35,836 nucleotides of DNA from Ruminococcus sp. (GTDB taxonomy: Bacteria > Bacillota > Clostridia > Oscillospirales > Ruminococcaceae): positions 1 through 35,836 of the forward strand of contig SVNN01000004.1 in NCBI GenBank assembly GCA_015066905.1, written 5' to 3'. A program made the translations under genes and the position numbers. Below are positions 14,685 to 24,850 of the stretch, one piece after another (positions within the stretch are counted from its first letter, which is position 1; every line of letters begins with the position of its first letter). Under the pieces are notes generated by a model. It searched no databases and was not told the origin of the DNA. It worked only from the letters and a program-made list of their open reading frames with translations.

Positions 14685-14737
14685 GGGTCATACCGCACCC
14701 GACAGATCTTCCAATAAACAGAAAGGCTGTGCGTGCC

Positions 14738-15535
14738 GTGGATAAAAAATTAACCCTGTACGGTTTTAATAATCTGACAAAAACGCTGAGCTTCAACATC
14801 TACGATGTATGCTACGCGAAGAGCGAGCGGGAGCAGCGTGACTATATCGCATACATTGACGAGCAGTACAATTCTGAGCGTCTGACCAATATTCTCTGTA
14901 ACGTCACCGAGATGATCGGTGCGCGTGTGCTGAATATCTCCAAGCAGGACTACGAGCCGCAGGGCGCGTCTGTGAATGTCCTGATTGCGGAAAAGGAGCT
15001 GGCGCCCGAGAGCATCGACGCCTCCTGCAACCGCGGGGAATGGAGTGGTCACAACAGTGTACACGCCCATCTCGACAAGAGTCATGTGACGGTACATACC
15101 TTTCCTGAATATCACCCCGACAACGCGATTTCCACCTTCCGCGTGGATATTGACGTTGCGACCTGCGGAACGATCTCGCCGCTGAATGCGCTGAATCTGC
15201 TGATTGCCAGCTTTGATTCGGACATCATCACAATCGATTACCGCATCAGAGGCTTTACGCGTGATGTTTCGGGCAAGAAGTTCTTCATCGACCACAACAT
15301 CACCTCGATTCAGGACTACATCGACGCGGCAACGCTCCAGCGTTATGACGCTGTGGATGTGAACGTATATCAGTCCAATATTTTTCATACCAAGATGCTC
15401 GTGAAGGAGATCGAGCTGCAGAATTATCTCTTCAACAAGGATGTCTATGAGCTTTCCCCCACGCAGCGGCTGGATATCACCGACCGTCTGCGGAAGGAAA
15501 TGATCGAAATCTTCAGCGGAATGAACATCTACTGA
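14738..15535 (+). CDS. speD: S-adenosylmethionine decarboxylase proenzyme, E. coli-type
   Basis: [50 protein letters not shown] (pyruvoyl Ser at 15080), [13 protein letters not shown]; closely resembles E. coli SpeD. GTG start at 14738 chosen from RBS spacing. Confidence 0.92.
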
Positions 15536-15551
15536 TTCTCTTGGAAAGAGG

Positions 15552-17006
15552 GTGAAACTGATTCGCCATTCTCAGGACTACGCCCCGATTTATGAGGCAA
15601 TGCGCCGCTATCGGAAAAACAATATCGTCCGTCTGGATGTCCCCGGGCACAAGGGCGGACGCGGAAATAAGGTTCTGCGCGACTTCCTCGGCGCCGATTG
15701 TCTGGCGCTGGACGTCAATTCAATGAAACCGCTTGATAACCTCTGTCACCCTGTTTCTGTCATCCGCGAGGCGGAGGAACTGGCGGCAGAGGCATTCGGC
15801 GCGTCACAGGCATTCTTCATCGTCAACGGCACAACTGCGTCCGTACAGGCGATGATTCTTTCTGTCTGCAAGGCGGGCGATAAGATCATCATGCCGCGCA
15901 ACGTCCACCGGAGTGCGATCAACGCACTGGTCGTCTGCGGCGCGATCCCGGTTTATGTCGATCCCGGCGTGAACAAGGAGCTGGGCATTCCGCTTGGCAT
16001 GTCTGTCGAGGATGTCCGCCGTGCGATCGCGAAGAACCCCGACGCAAAGGCGGTTCTGGTCAACAACCCGACCTATTACGGCATCTGTTCTGATATCAGA
16101 GGGATTGCCGAGCTGGCGCACAGCCACGGGATGATGGTGCTGGCGGATGAGGCACACGGCACGCACTTCTACTTCGGTGAGGGACTCCCCGTCAGTGCAA
16201 TGGCGGCAGGGGCGGATATGGCGGCAGTGAGCGTTCATAAAACAGGCGGATCGCTGACACAGAGTTCGTTTCTGCTCTGCGGAGAACGGGTCAGAAAGGA
16301 CTACGTCAGACAGGTGATCAACCTTACCCAGACCACGAGCGGCTCTTATCTTCTGATGGTTTCGCTCGACCTCGCCAGACAGAATCTTGCCCTTCACGGT
16401 AAGGAGATCTTCCGAAAAACCGTGGAATATGCAACCTATGCGCGGACGGAAATCAACCGCATCGGCGGCTACTACGCGTTTGGTGATGAACTCATCAACG
16501 GCGACACCGTCTTTGATTTTGACCGCACCAAGGTCAGCGTACATACCAGAGCGATCGGTCTTGCGGGTGTGGAGGTGTACGACATCCTCCGCGACGACTA
16601 CGATATCCAGATTGAATTCGGCGACATCGGCAACGTGCTTGCAATCGTTTCCGCAGGCGACCGCGCGTTGGAGATTGAGCGGTTTATCGCCGCGCTGTCG
16701 GAGATCAAACGGCTTTACGCCAAGGATCCGACCGGTATGTTTGATCACGAATATATCAATCCCCTTGTGATGCTTCCGCCCCAGCAGGCGTTTTACAGCG
16801 ACAAGGAATCCTTGCCCGTAGAGCAGTCCGAGGGAAGGATCTGCGGCGAATTTGTCATGTGCTATCCGCCCGGTATCCCGATTCTCGCGCCCGGCGAGCT
16901 GATCACGGACGAGATTATCAACTACATCGTTTACTCCAAGGAAAAGGGCTGTTTTATGACAGGTACCGAGGATATGACCCTGTCGCGCATCAATGTCGTA
17001 AAGTAA
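15552..17006 (+). CDS. speA: Orn/Lys/Arg decarboxylase (fold-III PLP enzyme), probable arginine decarboxylase
   Basis: DVPGHKGG, NGTTASVQAMIL, LADEAHGTH, SVHKTGGSLTQSS PLP-Lys motif; next to speB, speE and speD. Substrate inferred from context. Confidence 0.88.
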   Translation: MKLIRHSQDYAPIYEAMRRYRKNNIVRLDVPGHKGGRGNKVLRDFLGADCLALDVNSMKPLDNLCHPVSVIREAEELAAEAFGASQAFFIVNGTTASVQAMILSVCKAGDKIIMPRNVHRSAINALVVCGAIPVYVDPGVNKELGIPLGMSVEDVRRAIAKNPDAKAVLVNNPTYYGICSDIRGIAELAHSHGMMVLADEAHGTHFYFGEGLPVSAMAAGADMAAVSVHKTGGSLTQSSFLLCGERVRKDYVRQVINLTQTTSGSYLLMVSLDLARQNLALHGKEIFRKTVEYATYARTEINRIGGYYAFGDELINGDTVFDFDRTKVSVHTRAIGLAGVEVYDILRDDYDIQIEFGDIGNVLAIVSAGDRALEIERFIAALSEIKRLYAKDPTGMFDHEYINPLVMLPPQQAFYSDKESLPVEQSEGRICGEFVMCYPPGIPILAPGELITDEIINYIVYSKEKGCFMTGTEDMTLSRINVVK

Positions 17007-17018
17007 GGAGGAAGAAGA

Positions 17019-17870
17019 ATGTCTTTTTGGTTCACCGAACAGCACACCGACCGTGTGCGTTTTTCGATTGAAGTGAAGGAACAGCTTTACTCCGGAAAAA
17101 GCTATTTTCAGAAGATTGAGGTGTTCGACACCTTTGAATTCGGCAGAGTGCTTGTGCTGGACGATTACATCATGCTCACTGAAAAGGATGAGTACATCTA
17201 TCACGAGATGATGGTGCACGTTCCGATCGCGTGCCGTCCTGATACAATCAAAAAAGTGCTGGTCATCGGCGCGGGCGACGGCGGTACGGTGCGCGAGCTT
17301 TGCCGCTATGACAGCATCGAGCAGATTGACATGGTCGAGATTGACGAACAGGTCGTGGAGGTATGTAAAAAATATCTGCCGCAGACTGCCTGCCGGCTGG
17401 ACGATCCGCGCGTGCATCTTTATTTTGAGGACGGGCTGAAATTTGTCCGCCGCTATCAGAACACCTACGACCTCATCATTGTCGATTCGACTGACCCGTT
17501 CGGTCCGGGCGAGGGGCTTTTCACAAAGGAATTCTACGGCAACTGCTTTATGGCACTGACCGAGCACGGCATTCTGACGAATCAGCATGAGAGCACCTAT
17601 TACGACAGCTACACCGAGATGGTGAGCCGTACCCACCGCAGAATGCGGAGTGTGTTCCCCGTTTCAATGGTATATCAGGCGCACATTCCGACCTATCCGT
17701 CGGGACACTGGCTGTTCGGCTTTGCGTCGAAAACCACCCATCCGATCTACGACTTCCACCCTGCGCGGTGGGAAGAGCTGCAGCTGAAAACGCGCTATTA
17801 TAACACAGATCTGCACCGCGGCTGCTTTGCGCTGCCGAATTCAGTCAAGGAGGTGCTGGAGAATGCCTAG
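17019..17870 (+). CDS. speE: Spermidine synthase (polyamine aminopropyltransferase)
   Basis: WFTEQHTDRVRFSIEVKEQLYSGKSYFQKIEVFDT, VLVIGAGDGGTVREL, DLIIVDSTDPFGPGEGLFTKEFY motifs. Confidence 0.94.
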   Translation: MSFWFTEQHTDRVRFSIEVKEQLYSGKSYFQKIEVFDTFEFGRVLVLDDYIMLTEKDEYIYHEMMVHVPIACRPDTIKKVLVIGAGDGGTVRELCRYDSIEQIDMVEIDEQVVEVCKKYLPQTACRLDDPRVHLYFEDGLKFVRRYQNTYDLIIVDSTDPFGPGEGLFTKEFYGNCFMALTEHGILTNQHESTYYDSYTEMVSRTHRRMRSVFPVSMVYQAHIPTYPSGHWLFGFASKTTHPIYDFHPARWEELQLKTRYYNTDLHRGCFALPNSVKEVLENA

Positions 17871-18735
17871 AGAGCGCAATGTGCACACCTTTATCGGCTG
17901 TGACAGCACATATGAAGAAAGTCAGCTGGTCATCTACGGTGCGCCGTTCGATTCGACCACATCGTTCCGCCCCGGAACGCGGTTTGCGTCTGCAGCAATG
18001 CGGAATGAGAGCTTCGGCATTGAAACCTTTTCGCCGTATCAGGAGCTTGATCTGGAGGATTTCGCGGTATTTGACGCCGGCGACCTTGAGCTTCCGTTCG
18101 GCAGTCCTGCCCGTGCGCTGGAACAGCTGGAGCAGGAGGCGGAATCGATTTTATCCGACGGAAAAATCCCGCTGATGATCGGCGGTGAGCATCTGGTCAC
18201 CTTAGCACCTGTCCGTGCCGCGGCAAAGCGGTACAAGGACCTTTGCATCATCCACTTTGACGCGCACGCAGATTTAAGAGAAAATTATCTCGGTGAGGAA
18301 TTGTCGCACGCGAGTGTCATCCGCCGCTGTCATGATATTTTAGGCGACGGACGGATTTTCCAGTTCGGCATCCGCAGCGGTGAACGTGCAGAATTTGCGT
18401 TTGCTGCATCACACACGACAATGAACCGATTCAACTTGAACGGACTCGATGAAGCGATTCGCGTAATCGGCGACCGCCCTGTCTATTTCACTCTGGATCT
18501 GGACGTGCTGGATCCGTCGGAATTCCCCGGCACAGGCACGCCCGAGGCAGGCGGTGTGCGGTTTACAGAGCTGCTTGACGCAATCATCCGCGTGAGTCGC
18601 ACCAACATCATCGGGCTGGATATCAACGAGCTTTCTCCGCACTACGACCAGAGCGGCGCATCCACCGCGCTTGCCTGCAAGCTTCTGCGTGAGACGATCC
18701 TGGCGGTTTTAAATAACAGAAAGAAGGCGAACTGA
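17863..18735 (+). CDS. speB: Agmatinase
   Basis: YGAPFDSTTSFRPGTRFA, GGEHLVTL, HFDAHADLR, FTLDLDVLDPSEFPGTGTPEAGG Mn-binding motifs; overlaps the speE stop by 8 bp. Confidence 0.93.
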   Translation: MPRERNVHTFIGCDSTYEESQLVIYGAPFDSTTSFRPGTRFASAAMRNESFGIETFSPYQELDLEDFAVFDAGDLELPFGSPARALEQLEQEAESILSDGKIPLMIGGEHLVTLAPVRAAAKRYKDLCIIHFDAHADLRENYLGEELSHASVIRRCHDILGDGRIFQFGIRSGERAEFAFAASHTTMNRFNLNGLDEAIRVIGDRPVYFTLDLDVLDPSEFPGTGTPEAGGVRFTELLDAIIRVSRTNIIGLDINELSPHYDQSGASTALACKLLRETILAVLNNRKKAN

Positions 18736-18738
18736 AAA

Positions 18739-19941
18739 ATGGGAAGAGCATTGATTATCGGTGCCGGCGGCGTAGCCGGTGTAGTCATCCACAAGTGCTG
18801 TCAGAACAGCGAGGTATTTGAGGAAATCTGTATCGCGAGCCGCACGAAATCCAAGTGCGACGCGTTCCGCGACAAGCTGCAGGGCAAGACAAAGACCGTC
18901 ATCACGACCGCACAGGTGAATGCGGACAACGTGGACGAGCTGATCGCCCTGATCGAATCCTACAAGCCGCAGGTCGTCATCAATGTTGCCCTGCCGTATC
19001 AGGATCTGACGATCATGGACGCTTGTCTGGCAACCAAGACGAATTATATGGACACCGCGAACTATGAGCCGGAGGATACTGCAAAGTTCGAATATTCCTG
19101 GCAGTGGGCTTACCGCGAGCGCTTTGAAAAGGCAGGCATCACCGCTCTGCTCGGCAGCGGCTTTGACCCCGGTGTAACAGGTGTATTCTGCGCCTATGCA
19201 CAGAAGCATCACTTCGACGAGATTCACTATATCGACATCCTCGACTGCAACGGCGGCGATCACGGTTATCCGTTCGCGACCAACTTCAATCCCGAAATCA
19301 ACATCCGTGAGGTGTCCGCAAAGGGCAGCTTTATCGAAAACGGTCAGTGGGTGGAGACCGAGCCGATGGAAATCAAGCGCGAATATGATTTCAAGGGCGT
19401 CGGCAAGAAGGATATGTATCTCCTCCACCACGAGGAGCTGGAGTCGCTGGCGATCAACATCAAGGGCGTCAAGCGCATTCGTTTCTTCATGACCTTCGGG
19501 CAGAGCTATCTGACCCACCTCAAGTGTCTGGAAAATGTCGGCATGACCTCGATCGAGCCGATTGAATATGAGGGCAAGCAGATCGTTCCGCTCCAGTTCT
19601 TGAAGGCTGTCCTGCCGGATCCTGCATCTCTGGGCCCGAGAACCGTCGGTAAGACGAACATCGGCTGTATCTTCCAGGGCGTCAAGGACGGAAAGGAAAA
19701 AACCTATTATCTCTACAACATCTGCGACCATCAGGCGTGCTACAAGGAAGTCGGCTCTCAGGCGATCTCCTATACCACAGGTGTTCCGGCGATGATCGGC
19801 GCAATGATGCTGATGACAGGCACATGGAACAAGCCCGGTGTATATAACATTGAAGAATTCGATCCCGATCCGTTCATGGAGGCACTCAACAAATGGGGTC
19901 TGCCGTGGGAAGAGGATTTCAACCCCGTTCTGGTTCCGTAA
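18739..19941 (+). CDS. Carboxy(nor)spermidine dehydrogenase/synthase (saccharopine dehydrogenase-like)
   Basis: GRALIIGAGGVAGVV Rossmann motif, NVALPYQDLTIMDACL, GSGFDPGVTGVF; adjacent to nspC-like gene. Confidence 0.88.
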   Translation: MGRALIIGAGGVAGVVIHKCCQNSEVFEEICIASRTKSKCDAFRDKLQGKTKTVITTAQVNADNVDELIALIESYKPQVVINVALPYQDLTIMDACLATKTNYMDTANYEPEDTAKFEYSWQWAYRERFEKAGITALLGSGFDPGVTGVFCAYAQKHHFDEIHYIDILDCNGGDHGYPFATNFNPEINIREVSAKGSFIENGQWVETEPMEIKREYDFKGVGKKDMYLLHHEELESLAINIKGVKRIRFFMTFGQSYLTHLKCLENVGMTSIEPIEYEGKQIVPLQFLKAVLPDPASLGPRTVGKTNIGCIFQGVKDGKEKTYYLYNICDHQACYKEVGSQAISYTTGVPAMIGAMMLMTGTWNKPGVYNIEEFDPDPFMEALNKWGLPWEEDFNPVLVP

Positions 19942-21083
19942 TGATGCTGAATTTTGATATTTCCGCCGTACAGACACCGTGTTATGTGGTGGATGAACGG
20001 CTTTTGGAGGACAACTGCCGCATCCTGCGCGAGGTACAGGAGAAATCAGGCGCGAAGATTCTGCTTGCACAGAAGGCGTTTTCGATGTACAGTACCTATC
20101 CGCTGATCTCGCAGTATCTCTGCGGCACGACCGCGAGCGGTCTGTATGAGGCCAGGCTGGGGCGCGAGGAATTCGGCGGCGAGGTGCATATCTTTTCCCC
20201 TGCTTATTCCGAACGCGATTTCGGAGAAATCTTAGAAATCTGCGACCATATCGTATTCAACACGCCTGCCCAGTGGCGGAGATTCCGTCCGCTTGTGGAG
20301 GCGTCGCCGAGAAAGATCAGCTGCGGACTGCGGATCAATCCCGAATATGCCGAAACGGAAACGGAGATTTATAACCCCTGCGCGAAAGGTTCCCGACTGG
20401 GAACGATCGCTGCACAGCTTTGCGAGGAAGATCTTGACGGGCTGGAGGGACTCCATTTCCATACGATGTGCGAGCAGAATTCGGATGTTCTGGCACGCAC
20501 CCTTCCCTTCGTGGAGGAGAAGTTCGGGAAATATCTGAAACAGATGAAGTGGCTCAATTTCGGCGGCGGACATCACATCACGCGCGCGGATTATGACCGC
20601 GCGCTGCTGGTGAAATGCTGCCGCGGTATGGCGGAAAAATATGGGGTGCAGATCTATCTGGAACCGGGCGAGGCGGTTGCGCTGAACGCAGGCTTTCTGG
20701 TGAGTGAGGTGCTGGAGTTTGTTGAAAACGGCGGCATCACGAACGCGATTTTAGACACCTCTGCCGCCTGCCATATGCCCGACGTGCTGGAGATGCCATA
20801 CCGCCCGAATATCATCGGCGCAGGACAGCCCGGCGAAAAGCCGTACACCTACCGCTTCGGCGGCCCGACCTGTCTGGCGGGCGACATCATCGGCGATTAC
20901 AGCTTTGATGCGCCGCTTTCTGTCGGCGACCGGCTCGTGTTCTGCGATATGGCGATCTACTCTATGGTCAAGAACAATACCTTCAACGGTATGCCTTTGC
21001 CGTCAATTTTCCTCTGCCGTAAGGACGGGGGACTTGCAATTATCCGCAAATTCGGGTATACTGATTTTAAGAGCCGGCTCTGA
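19941..21083 (+). CDS. nspC: Carboxy(nor)spermidine decarboxylase
   Basis: TPCYVVDERLLEDNCRIL, LAQKAFSMYSTYP, LHFHTMCEQNSD, LEPGEAV, GGPTCLAGD; TAATG stop/start overlap with the preceding gene. Confidence 0.9.
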   Translation: MMLNFDISAVQTPCYVVDERLLEDNCRILREVQEKSGAKILLAQKAFSMYSTYPLISQYLCGTTASGLYEARLGREEFGGEVHIFSPAYSERDFGEILEICDHIVFNTPAQWRRFRPLVEASPRKISCGLRINPEYAETETEIYNPCAKGSRLGTIAAQLCEEDLDGLEGLHFHTMCEQNSDVLARTLPFVEEKFGKYLKQMKWLNFGGGHHITRADYDRALLVKCCRGMAEKYGVQIYLEPGEAVALNAGFLVSEVLEFVENGGITNAILDTSAACHMPDVLEMPYRPNIIGAGQPGEKPYTYRFGGPTCLAGDIIGDYSFDAPLSVGDRLVFCDMAIYSMVKNNTFNGMPLPSIFLCRKDGGLAIIRKFGYTDFKSRL

Positions 21084-21112
21084 GCCGACTGAATTCTGAG
21101 GAAAGGAGCGAT

Positions 21113-22075
21113 ATGGAAATGGCGATCATCCGCGCAAAAGGACTGACCAGAATCAATCCGCCGCCTGTCACGGGCTGGCGCAAAATGTTTCACCATTCGG
21201 AAGAAACTGTCGCTCCTGTATATGACCTCACCTTTTCGGTGGACAGCGATTATACCGTGGTTTACGGCTCCGACAAGGACGAGCTGACGACAATGTTCCG
21301 TCTGCTGCGCGGCACGCTTTCGCCGTCGGTGGGGACGGTTACCGTATTCGGACAAGCACCCGACAGCAAGCAGAAGCACCGCATCCCGTTCATCGGCGAG
21401 GTTTCTGAACGGCTTGCAAAGGAACTGGCAGACGACAAGCCTGAAGACTGCTTTGCCAGATGCAAGGCGGAGGGTGCGCTGCCCGCAACGGAATATCTCT
21501 CAAGGATCTCCTCGCTCTCGCTGCTGTTCGGAATTGAAACCTGTCTGGGACAGTCGTTTTATCGTCTGACGCGGAATGAGCAGGTGCGCTGTATGCTGAT
21601 TATGGCACTGCTGCGCGACTCGAAATTCCTGATGCTGGATTCTCCGACGGAGCATTCGGATCCTTCTGAGCGTACCGAGCTGCGCGAGTTTCTGAAGATC
21701 CATCACGCCCAGCAGGGGACAGGCATCTTTCTGACCAGCACACGGCTGGAGGATACGGAGAATGCGGAGCGCGTAATTGTTATGGACGGCGGCAGAATTG
21801 TGTTCAACGACTCCGGTGCGCTGTTCCGCAAGGCGGTCGGCAACAAGAAGATCGTCACACTGACGCTGAGTGAGCCGCCGCAGCTTTACGGTATGCCGCA
21901 CGCACGGCTGATCGCACAGCCTTCTCCGCTCCAGATGGTGCTGGAGGTGGATCTCTCCCGTCAGTCGCTCCGCGCATTTTTAGAGAAGCTTTCCAAGCGG
22001 CTTTCGATCACGGACATCCAGGCAGAGGAGCTTTCGTTCCGCCAGGTCGTGAAAAAACTGAATGAGCTTCGTTAA
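21113..22075 (+). CDS. ABC-transporter ATPase-like protein with degenerate catalytic motifs (pseudo-ATPase)
   Basis: ABC-like order of motifs but Walker A = YGSDKDELTT, signature = RLTRNEQ, Walker B = FLMLDSPTEHSD, H-loop region = FLTSTRLEDTENAERVIVMDGGRIV. Confidence 0.75.
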   Translation: MEMAIIRAKGLTRINPPPVTGWRKMFHHSEETVAPVYDLTFSVDSDYTVVYGSDKDELTTMFRLLRGTLSPSVGTVTVFGQAPDSKQKHRIPFIGEVSERLAKELADDKPEDCFARCKAEGALPATEYLSRISSLSLLFGIETCLGQSFYRLTRNEQVRCMLIMALLRDSKFLMLDSPTEHSDPSERTELREFLKIHHAQQGTGIFLTSTRLEDTENAERVIVMDGGRIVFNDSGALFRKAVGNKKIVTLTLSEPPQLYGMPHARLIAQPSPLQMVLEVDLSRQSLRAFLEKLSKRLSITDIQAEELSFRQVVKKLNELR

Positions 22076-22076
22076 A

Positions 22077-22099
22077 GGACGCTGAAAAGCGTCCTTTTT
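22077..22099 (+). terminator. Terminator at the end of the polyamine gene run
   Basis: GGACGCT-GAAA-AGCGTCC-TTTTT. Confidence 0.85.
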
Positions 22100-22251
22100 G
22101 CGTCTGAATGTGTTCGTTTTCTGAAAATTGAAAAAATTTTTCTCTGATATCTAGCTATTTCCGCGGTTATATGGTATACTAGAAAGGTATTGTGGATAAT
22201 TGCGGGAATACATCGGTACGATGTCCTGATAGATCGAAAGGAGTGACAGGA

Positions 22252-23547
22252 TTGACTGTTGCATATGAGAGAAAACAGCTTGCGGAGGGCATCTTCTCCA
22301 CAACTGTTGTAGACAAGAAGTTCAAATCCAACCAGATCCGCGTGCGTTTTCTGACGCCGCTTTCGCCGGAAACCGCCGCAGAACAGGCGCTTGCAGTGGG
22401 GATGCTCAGTATGTGCTGCAAGAAATATCCCACGCTGGCAGCACTGTCTGCACGCCGTGCGGAGCTTTACGGCACCGGAATCGGAAGTGATATTACCCGT
22501 TCGGGCGATCTGCAGGTGCTTTCGCTTTCCGTCAGCGCAATCGACTCGCGCTATGCGCTGGAGGGTGAGGATGTCAATGCACTTGCGCTGGAGCTTCTGC
22601 TCGGCTGTCTGTTCGAGCCGAATGCAGAAAACGGTGCGTTTGAAGAATCTATGTTCCGGATCCGTAAAAAGGATCTTCTGGATACGATCCTTGCGGAGAT
22701 CAACAACAAGCGCGGATACGCGATCTCGCAGGCGAGAAAGCTGATGTTCGAGGGTGAGAGTGCTGCATATGCCGCTTATGGCGAACTGAAGGAAGCGGAA
22801 ATGGTAACCGCAGAGTCCGCCTACCGCGCATACTGCCGTCTGCTGGAGGAGGCACAGATTGAGCTGTACTTCATCGGCGGGTCCGCCCAGCCTGAAGCAG
22901 AAGCAAAGCTGCTGGACGCATTCTCAAAGATCCGCAGAGCGCCAAGGTCTGTGGAATTCCTCACGCCCAGCCCGTGCAAAGCAGAAGTCAGATGCGCTGA
23001 GGAACAGCTGGATGTTGAACAGTCCAAGCTGGTGCTTGCATTGAAATATGATTACACCAATCCGCTGATGATGCGCCTGATGAATACCGTTCTGGGCGGC
23101 GGATCGACCGTGTCCAAGCTGTTTGTGAATGTCCGCGAGAAGATGAGTCTGTGCTACTACTGTGCAAGCTCTCTTGCGCCGACCAAGCGTACACTGCTGA
23201 TTGATTCGGGCATTGCGCTTGAAAAGAGGGAGATTGCACAGCAGGCGATTCTGGATCAGATCCGTGCGATCTGTGACGGAGATTTTTCCGAAGAGGATAT
23301 CGACAACGCCGCACGCACGATCTCGGATGATATCGGCGCGGTGGGTGATACCCCGTCGAGCTGGGTCGGCTGGTATTTCGACCGCCTGACGATGAACGAA
23401 TTCATCACCCCGCAGGAGATGCTGGATCGGCTTTCTGCCGCGCTGGCACCCGAAAACCGTGCAGAAACCAGAGCTGAGATCATCAAGGCGGCAAAGAGCC
23501 TGAAACTGGATACCGTATATCTGATGCAGCAGAGAGAGGAGGCGTAA
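22252..23547 (+). CDS. M16 family peptidase-like protein, YmfF-type (non-catalytic half)
   Basis: LSARRAELYGTGIG; no HxxEH motif; TTG start at 22252 with GAAAGGAG RBS, upstream ATG unsupported. Confidence 0.8.
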   Translation: MTVAYERKQLAEGIFSTTVVDKKFKSNQIRVRFLTPLSPETAAEQALAVGMLSMCCKKYPTLAALSARRAELYGTGIGSDITRSGDLQVLSLSVSAIDSRYALEGEDVNALALELLLGCLFEPNAENGAFEESMFRIRKKDLLDTILAEINNKRGYAISQARKLMFEGESAAYAAYGELKEAEMVTAESAYRAYCRLLEEAQIELYFIGGSAQPEAEAKLLDAFSKIRRAPRSVEFLTPSPCKAEVRCAEEQLDVEQSKLVLALKYDYTNPLMMRLMNTVLGGGSTVSKLFVNVREKMSLCYYCASSLAPTKRTLLIDSGIALEKREIAQQAILDQIRAICDGDFSEEDIDNAARTISDDIGAVGDTPSSWVGWYFDRLTMNEFITPQEMLDRLSAALAPENRAETRAEIIKAAKSLKLDTVYLMQQREEA

Positions 23548-23548
23548 G

Positions 23549-24850
23549 ATGGAACGAAAGACGATCCGCTGTACGCTGACAGGTGATACCTGTGAATATA
23601 TCAAGCATCCGTCGGGACTGGACATCTACGTTTGCGAGATGCCGGGATTTTCAACCGCAGAGGCGCAGTTTGCAACGCGTTACGGTTCGAACAACAATAC
23701 CTTCCGTACCGTGGACGGAGAATTCTGTTCCGTTCCGGAGGGAATCGCACATTTTCTGGAGCACAAGCTGTTTGAAAACGAAGACGGAGATACCTTTGCG
23801 CGTTACGCCAAGACAGGTGCCTGCGCGAATGCCTACACCTCGGTGGACCGCACGAACTATTATTTCAGCTGTTCGGCGAATTTCAACGACTCGCTGAAGA
23901 TCCTGCTGGAGTTTGTACAGGATCCTTATTTCACGAAGGAAAGCGTTGAAAAGGAGCTTGGCATCATCGGGCAGGAGATCCGTATGGTGAACGACAACCC
24001 CGGCTCCAGATGCTTCAACAATCTGATGAAGGCGCTTTACAAAAACCACCCGATCAAGATCGACGTCATCGGAACAGAGGAGAGCATCGCGAAGATCACG
24101 CCTGAGCTACTTTATCAGTGCTATCACGCATTCTACAACCTCGGCAACATGGTGCTGATCGCAGTCGGCAACGTCAAGACCGACGAGGTTCTGGAGATCT
24201 GTGATGCATATCTCAAGCCCTGCACCCCCGTTGTGCCGGAGCTTTGCTTCCCTGAAGAACCGACAGAGGTCGTTCAGAGTGAGATTTCGGCGGTTCTCCC
24301 CGTCGGACAGCCGATCTTTATGCTCGGCTTCAAGCTGACGCCCCGTACAGGTGCGGATGACCTGCGTGCATCCTTGCTCGCGAAGCTTGTGACAGATGTA
24401 CTGACGGATGAATCTTCTCCGCTTTATACTTCGCTTTTAGAGGACGGTCTGCTGAATGCGTCGTTCGGTACGGAGATCTTCAGCGGCGACGGCTTCTCCA
24501 CCCTGCTCATCAGCGGTGAGTCGAAGGATCCGCAGGCGGTTCGCGAACGGATTCAGGCGGAGATCGCGCGTGCGGCGAAGGAAGGACTCGACCGCGATCA
24601 CTTCAACCGCACCAAGAAGGTCAATTATGGCAGCTCGCTCCGTGCGCTCAACAACGTCGAGAGCGTCGGCGAAATGCTCTTCGGGGCATATATGGAGCGT
24701 GTTGCACCGTTTACAGACATTGATATGCTGGCTGAGCTGACGTATGAGGACGCGCAGAAGTTCCTGGAAACTTCCGTCGCACCTGCGCCCTCGGCACTCT
24801 CGGTCATTCTGCCGGGTGCAGCACAGACAGAACAGGAGGAGCAGGCATGA
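23549..24850 (+). CDS. M16 family zinc peptidase, YmfH-type
   Basis: GIAHFLEHKLFENEDGD (HxxEH), ANAYTSVDRTNYYFSC motifs. Confidence 0.88.
   Translation: MERKTIRCTLTGDTCEYIKHPSGLDIYVCEMPGFSTAEAQFATRYGSNNNTFRTVDGEFCSVPEGIAHFLEHKLFENEDGDTFARYAKTGACANAYTSVDRTNYYFSCSANFNDSLKILLEFVQDPYFTKESVEKELGIIGQEIRMVNDNPGSRCFNNLMKALYKNHPIKIDVIGTEESIAKITPELLYQCYHAFYNLGNMVLIAVGNVKTDEVLEICDAYLKPCTPVVPELCFPEEPTEVVQSEISAVLPVGQPIFMLGFKLTPRTGADDLRASLLAKLVTDVLTDESSPLYTSLLEDGLLNASFGTEIFSGDGFSTLLISGESKDPQAVRERIQAEIARAAKEGLDRDHFNRTKKVNYGSSLRALNNVESVGEMLFGAYMERVAPFTDIDMLAELTYEDAQKFLETSVAPAPSALSVILPGAAQTEQEEQA

Follow-up and report, generated by a model that had tools for sequence, protein, structure and literature searches.

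P0001, an open reading frame downstream of a run of polyamine genes in a Ruminococcus genome, was found to be related to the ATPases of ABC-2 exporters and to have lost the motifs for ATP handling, and its product is, on balance, considered to be a neofunctionalized pseudo-ATPase that is kept as a non-catalytic binding or scaffold protein after loss of the exporter. The domain-specific pattern of change, the absence of stop-free runs in simulations of neutral decay to 30-40% identity, and the normal codon usage make a functional pseudo-ATPase the most likely interpretation, rather than a decaying gene. The window (the whole stretch of 35,836 nucleotides that was analysed) belongs to a draft genome of a gut-type bacterium, consisting of 165 contigs, 84% complete and taken as a MAG, and all the evidence on P0001 comes from this one MAG.

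Gene organization and coding status

The organization of P0001 and its surroundings is as follows.

14729..21083, + strand: upstream polyamine run, AdoMetDC, Orn/Lys/Arg-decarboxylase-like, speE, agmatinase, carboxy(nor)spermidine dehydrogenase and nspC, assigned by NCBIfam
21099..21108, + strand: ribosome-binding site AGGAAAGGAG, read from the sequence, ahead of the P0001 ATG
21113..22075, + strand: P0001 coding sequence, pseudo-ABC ATPase, 320 amino acids plus stop, ATG start, intact
22074..22097, + strand: intrinsic terminator-like hairpin ending the transcription unit, -15.6 kcal/mol, z -5.3
22192-24850 of the window: two M16-type peptidase genes directly after P0001

The open reading frame is real, intact and coding, and the coordinates and motifs quoted for it in an earlier, sequence-only reading of this DNA were exact. 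In codon usage and codon-position base composition P0001 is the same as its neighbor genes (CAI, 0.71; GC3, 0.69), and the other reading frames of 21113-22075 score far below that of P0001, indicating that it is a resident coding gene. The ribosome-binding site described previously was confirmed, and the distance from the nspC stop at 21083 is 29 bp instead of the 30 bp given before. Likewise, the terminator claimed after P0001 was recovered as a strong hairpin at 22074-22097 (22077-22099 in the earlier reading), and a few T residues follow it on the 3' side. This hairpin was missing from the output of a consensus terminator scan, probably because the stem takes up part of the T run. Since P0001 is the last gene ahead of this terminator, its expression would follow that of the polyamine operon. 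Within the polyamine run, the carboxy(nor)spermidine dehydrogenase-like protein scores under the cut-off of its NCBIfam model; the first of the two M16 genes matches NCBIfam YfmF (EF-P 5-aminopentanol modification-associated) at a score just under the cut-off.

Loss of ATP-handling motifs

The motifs of P0001 were compared with those of the 80 nearest GTDB relatives. The corresponding segments, together with the C-terminal domain, are located as follows.

21263..21292, + strand: former Walker A, aa 51-60, YGSDKDELTT (family, LGPNGAGKST)
21401..21421, + strand: former Q-loop, aa 97-103, VSERLAK (family, VFGQKSQ; relatives, VFGQK/R)
21566..21583, + strand: former ABC signature, aa 152-157, LTRNEQ (family, LSLGER)
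21632..21661, + strand: former Walker B and D-loop, aa 174-183, MLDSPTEHSD (family, FLDEPTIGLD)
21731..21745, + strand: former H-loop, aa 207-211, LTSTR (family, LTTHD)
21833..22066, + strand: C-terminal domain, aa 241-318, evolving at the normal rate of the family

Walker A, Q-loop, signature, catalytic Glu, D-loop and H-loop are all absent from P0001, and the sole survivor is the Walker B Asp (Asp176), the catalytic Glu next to it being replaced by Ser177. The same motifs are nearly invariant among the relatives: the signature LSLGER is present in all 80, FLDEPTIGLD in 79 and LTTHD in 79 (the His being absent from one), and Walker A is canonical in 78, with one change of Gly to Cys and one of Pro to Leu as the exceptions. 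Identity over the ATP loops is 28% between P0001 and the relatives, and 95% among the relatives themselves. Judged from this alignment, the loss of motifs in P0001 is far beyond chance. The degeneracy of Walker A, signature, Walker B and H-loop noted earlier thus holds against the 80 relatives, and the losses of the Q-loop and D-loop are to be added to it. From these losses, P0001 is predicted neither to bind nor to hydrolyze ATP. Since the signature is lost, it could also not serve to complete a partner's composite ATP site.

Descent from an exporter ATPase subfamily

P0001 still matches the Pfam profile ABC_tran (PF00005) with 26.1 bits, barely above the cut-off of 25, and this match, together with the fold predicted by AF2 in the presence of relatives, places it within the ABC ATPase superfamily. 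Searches of whole genomes gave relatives that align with P0001 in full length, over aa 21-318, at 28-33% identity, and these are intact ABC-2 exporter ATPases, sharing with P0001 an N-terminal K-x-[FL]-F-x-R segment, the nucleotide-binding domain (NBD) and the C-terminal domain. In the loci around eleven of the nearest relatives, two PF06182 permeases are mostly located directly upstream, often with a beta-lactamase-fold hydrolase, as identified by Pfam for one locus and by eye for the others. On the basis of the HMMs and full-length alignments, which cover both the NBD and the C-terminal domain, P0001 is a diverged full-length descendant of this PF06182-linked subfamily, which we take to be COG4586-like and of the YadG/viologen-exporter type. 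The statement that no described family fits P0001 must therefore be revised with respect to descent, the members of the subfamily being intact; P0001 itself differs from them in carrying neither an intact Walker A, signature, Walker B Glu and H-loop nor an adjoining pair of PF06182 permeases. Orthologues with intact Walker motifs had been named beforehand as a sign of recent decay, and the homologues of P0001 are indeed intact.

When 45 relatives were supplied, AF2 predicted a complete ABC NBD plus the C-terminal domain with a pLDDT of 89.8; prediction without relatives gave no usable fold (pLDDT, 36), indicating that the confident model leans on the intact homologues. The top matches of this model in Foldseek included ABCA4, ABCA7 and NosF, with alignments spanning both the NBD and the C-terminal domain. 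The part matched by the C-terminal domain is presumably the regulatory domain of NosF/ABCA-type proteins, as judged partly from PDB titles (NosDFYL R-domain).

Search for orthologues, permeases and paralogues

No orthologue of P0001 was detected in roughly 1,100 genomes, composed of overlapping sets from the genus (three genomes), the family (about 400), the order (394) and the class (391), nor in an exact-peptide scan across GTDB r220 or a viral scan. These searches returned intact exporter ATPases, one partly degenerate member, or nothing. In agreement with the earlier remark that no permease is nearby, no PF06182 permease is encoded on the contig of P0001. Only one pair of PF06182 permeases was found in the genome; it lies on another contig, C116, beside an intact ATPase of its own. 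A further intact member of the P0001 subfamily was not found in this genome. Since the genome is 84% complete, a cognate permease pair of P0001 could be missing from the assembly.

Besides P0001, the subfamily has another orphan, L235/L050 (G075:C88:8914-9903), observed in Ruminococcus sp. UBA1366, in a genome 75% complete in which no PF06182 permease was found. Its H-loop His is replaced by Gln and its Walker A Pro by Leu, and Walker B reads LDEPLVGLD; by eye, its neighbors are an ACT-like gene and genes for homoserine dehydrogenase and kinase. L235/L050 possibly shows a loss of this kind at an earlier stage. A sister relation between P0001 and L235/L050 was not recovered in the trees made.

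Divergence of the two domains

The divergence of P0001 differs between domains. For the ATP loops, the mean patristic distance from P0001 to the relatives is 9.53, against 0.09 among the relatives, and for the rest of the NBD 5.87 against 1.19, these NBD tree distances being saturated and rough only. For the C-terminal domain the corresponding values are 2.95 and 2.34, and P0001 falls within the range of the family, the most divergent relative sampled being at 3.42. When C-terminal identity is divided by NBD identity, the quotient is 1.09 for P0001, the family median being 0.58 and the next highest value 0.66. With HMMs built without P0001, the C-terminal domain of P0001 scored 67 bits and fell inside the subfamily, against 23-34 bits for other COG4586-like subfamilies, and its NBD scored 98 bits and fell outside, below all of these other subfamilies (238-331). 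Such a split between domains is not as expected of a neutrally decaying gene. Relaxed selection, considered previously as an argument against a functional role, is thus apparent in the ATP-binding part and not in the C-terminal domain.

Neutral decay was simulated starting from the genes of three relatives. At 30-40% identity, six to nine stops had accumulated on average and none of 1,200 runs was stop-free; at 50% identity, 1.5% of runs remained stop-free for one of the three starting genes. The hydrophobic core is also retained. Among 62 columns of the NBD core that are hydrophobic in the family, 46 are still hydrophobic in P0001 (33% expected from composition; p 6e-11), and the same is true for 17 of 19 such columns in the C-terminal domain. 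The proposal of a non-hydrolytic pseudo-ABC protein whose frame is under selection is therefore supported by motif loss, domain distances, HMM scores and decay simulation altogether.

Linkage to polyamine genes

In other genomes of the bacterial family, 29 nspC loci were inspected, and a P0001-like gene within about 1.5 kb was seen at none. In the same-genus genome G002, the polyamine genes occur in unchanged order and the run stops with nspC, beyond which lie a terminator-like hairpin and unrelated genes, and a tblastn search for decayed remnants of P0001 after nspC in G002 and five other genomes gave none. The suggested conserved linkage to polyamine genes was thus not upheld, and the position of P0001 beside these genes appears particular to one genome. 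Past the nspC hairpin of G002 (L112:9406-11200), a prepilin-like gene and then a gene looking like HD-domain Cas3-type were noted by eye.

The downstream side was treated in the same way. P0001 as a conserved neighbor of the YfmF-type M16 gene was rejected (0 of 29 loci), and in G002 the YfmF-like gene is located away from the polyamine run, suggesting that the junction between the M16 genes and the polyamine run may stem from rearrangement. One intact hydrolase-permease-permease-ATPase cassette, in G394 (L101/L188; G394:C159:492-5564), is convergent with nspC; apart from this and P0001, no member of the subfamily was found adjoining nspC. Being single and different in arrangement, the G394 case was taken as coincidence.

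Discussion

With respect to function, the location of P0001 on the same strand just past nspC, with its own ribosome-binding site and a common terminator, would fit a regulator that senses polyamines or nucleotides and acts on the upstream pathway, but this role is unlikely: nspC does without such a neighbor in the other loci, the G002 operon is complete and terminates without it, the M16 junction may be a rearrangement, and sensing of nucleotides is hardly expected with the P-loop gone. A similarly low probability is given to P0001 as an inactive partner of an intact exporter ATPase, for instance the C116 paralogue, by which an asymmetric or silenced exporter would be formed. The retained C-terminal domain and the presence of an intact paralogue with permeases agree with such a partnership, and heteromeric ABC proteins with degenerate sites are well known (PMC7756269); with the signature lost, however, the site of the partner would remain incomplete and both ATP sites would be dead. 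In addition, the C116 ATPase is from another subfamily and only weakly similar in the C-terminal domain, and the family Q-loop, expected to touch the permease, is lost in P0001.

A decaying pseudogene whose frame is still open by luck would account for an orphan gene with its catalytic motifs gone and its cognate permeases not found; the intact frame that neutral simulation to 30-40% identity never preserves, the C-terminal domain free of decay, and the retained hydrophobic core and codon usage make this very unlikely. Still less credible, indeed highly improbable, is a working ATPase with unorthodox motifs: the protein has kept its fold and the Walker B Asp, but the P-loop Lys and glycines, catalytic Glu, signature and H-loop are all gone, and no intermediate pattern of compensation is seen among the relatives.

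For the preferred pseudo-ATPase, the exporter permease pair would have been lost in this lineage, and P0001 would have been kept thereafter as a non-catalytic scaffold. The dead NBD may then be a passive structural module, and P0001 may act through the C-terminal domain by binding itself, another ABC ATPase or some other ligand. This domain would correspond to the regulatory domain that NosF/ABCA-type proteins carry, and by analogy we infer for it a role in dimerization or regulation. A more specific picture, in which a soluble, permease-free pseudo-ABC protein has discarded the ATPase engine and the C-terminal regulatory domain alone is selected, binding or regulating for its operon, is put forward tentatively, as one that may well not hold.

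Among known systems, the PF06182-linked exporter ATPases are like P0001 in full-length homology, N-terminal segment and domain composition, but keep the ATP motifs and mostly lie beside two permeases, neither of which applies to P0001. NosF and ABCA-type NBDs match it structurally across the NBD and C-terminal regulatory domain; unlike P0001, they bind ATP and drive permeases. L235/L050 is likewise a permease-less orphan lacking the H-loop His, but keeps Walker A, signature and catalytic Glu, and sits by homoserine-pathway genes. Loss of catalytic residues is shared with the heteromeric exporters TM287/288, TmrAB, TAP and CFTR, in the last of which the Walker B Glu is also changed to Ser (PMC7756269). 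In these exporters one of two sites is altered within a working transporter, whereas the NBD of P0001 stands free, has lost all its motifs and has no permease attached to it.

In a limited literature search, neither a bacterial pseudoenzyme on the ABC ATPase fold nor a protein such as P0001 was found described, and bacterial pseudoenzymes of this fold appear to be little described. The confinement of loss to the ATP-binding half, with the C-terminal domain evolving normally, points to a separable function of the C-terminal domain. Resting on one MAG, P0001 offers a clean test of what the regulatory domains of exporters do alone.
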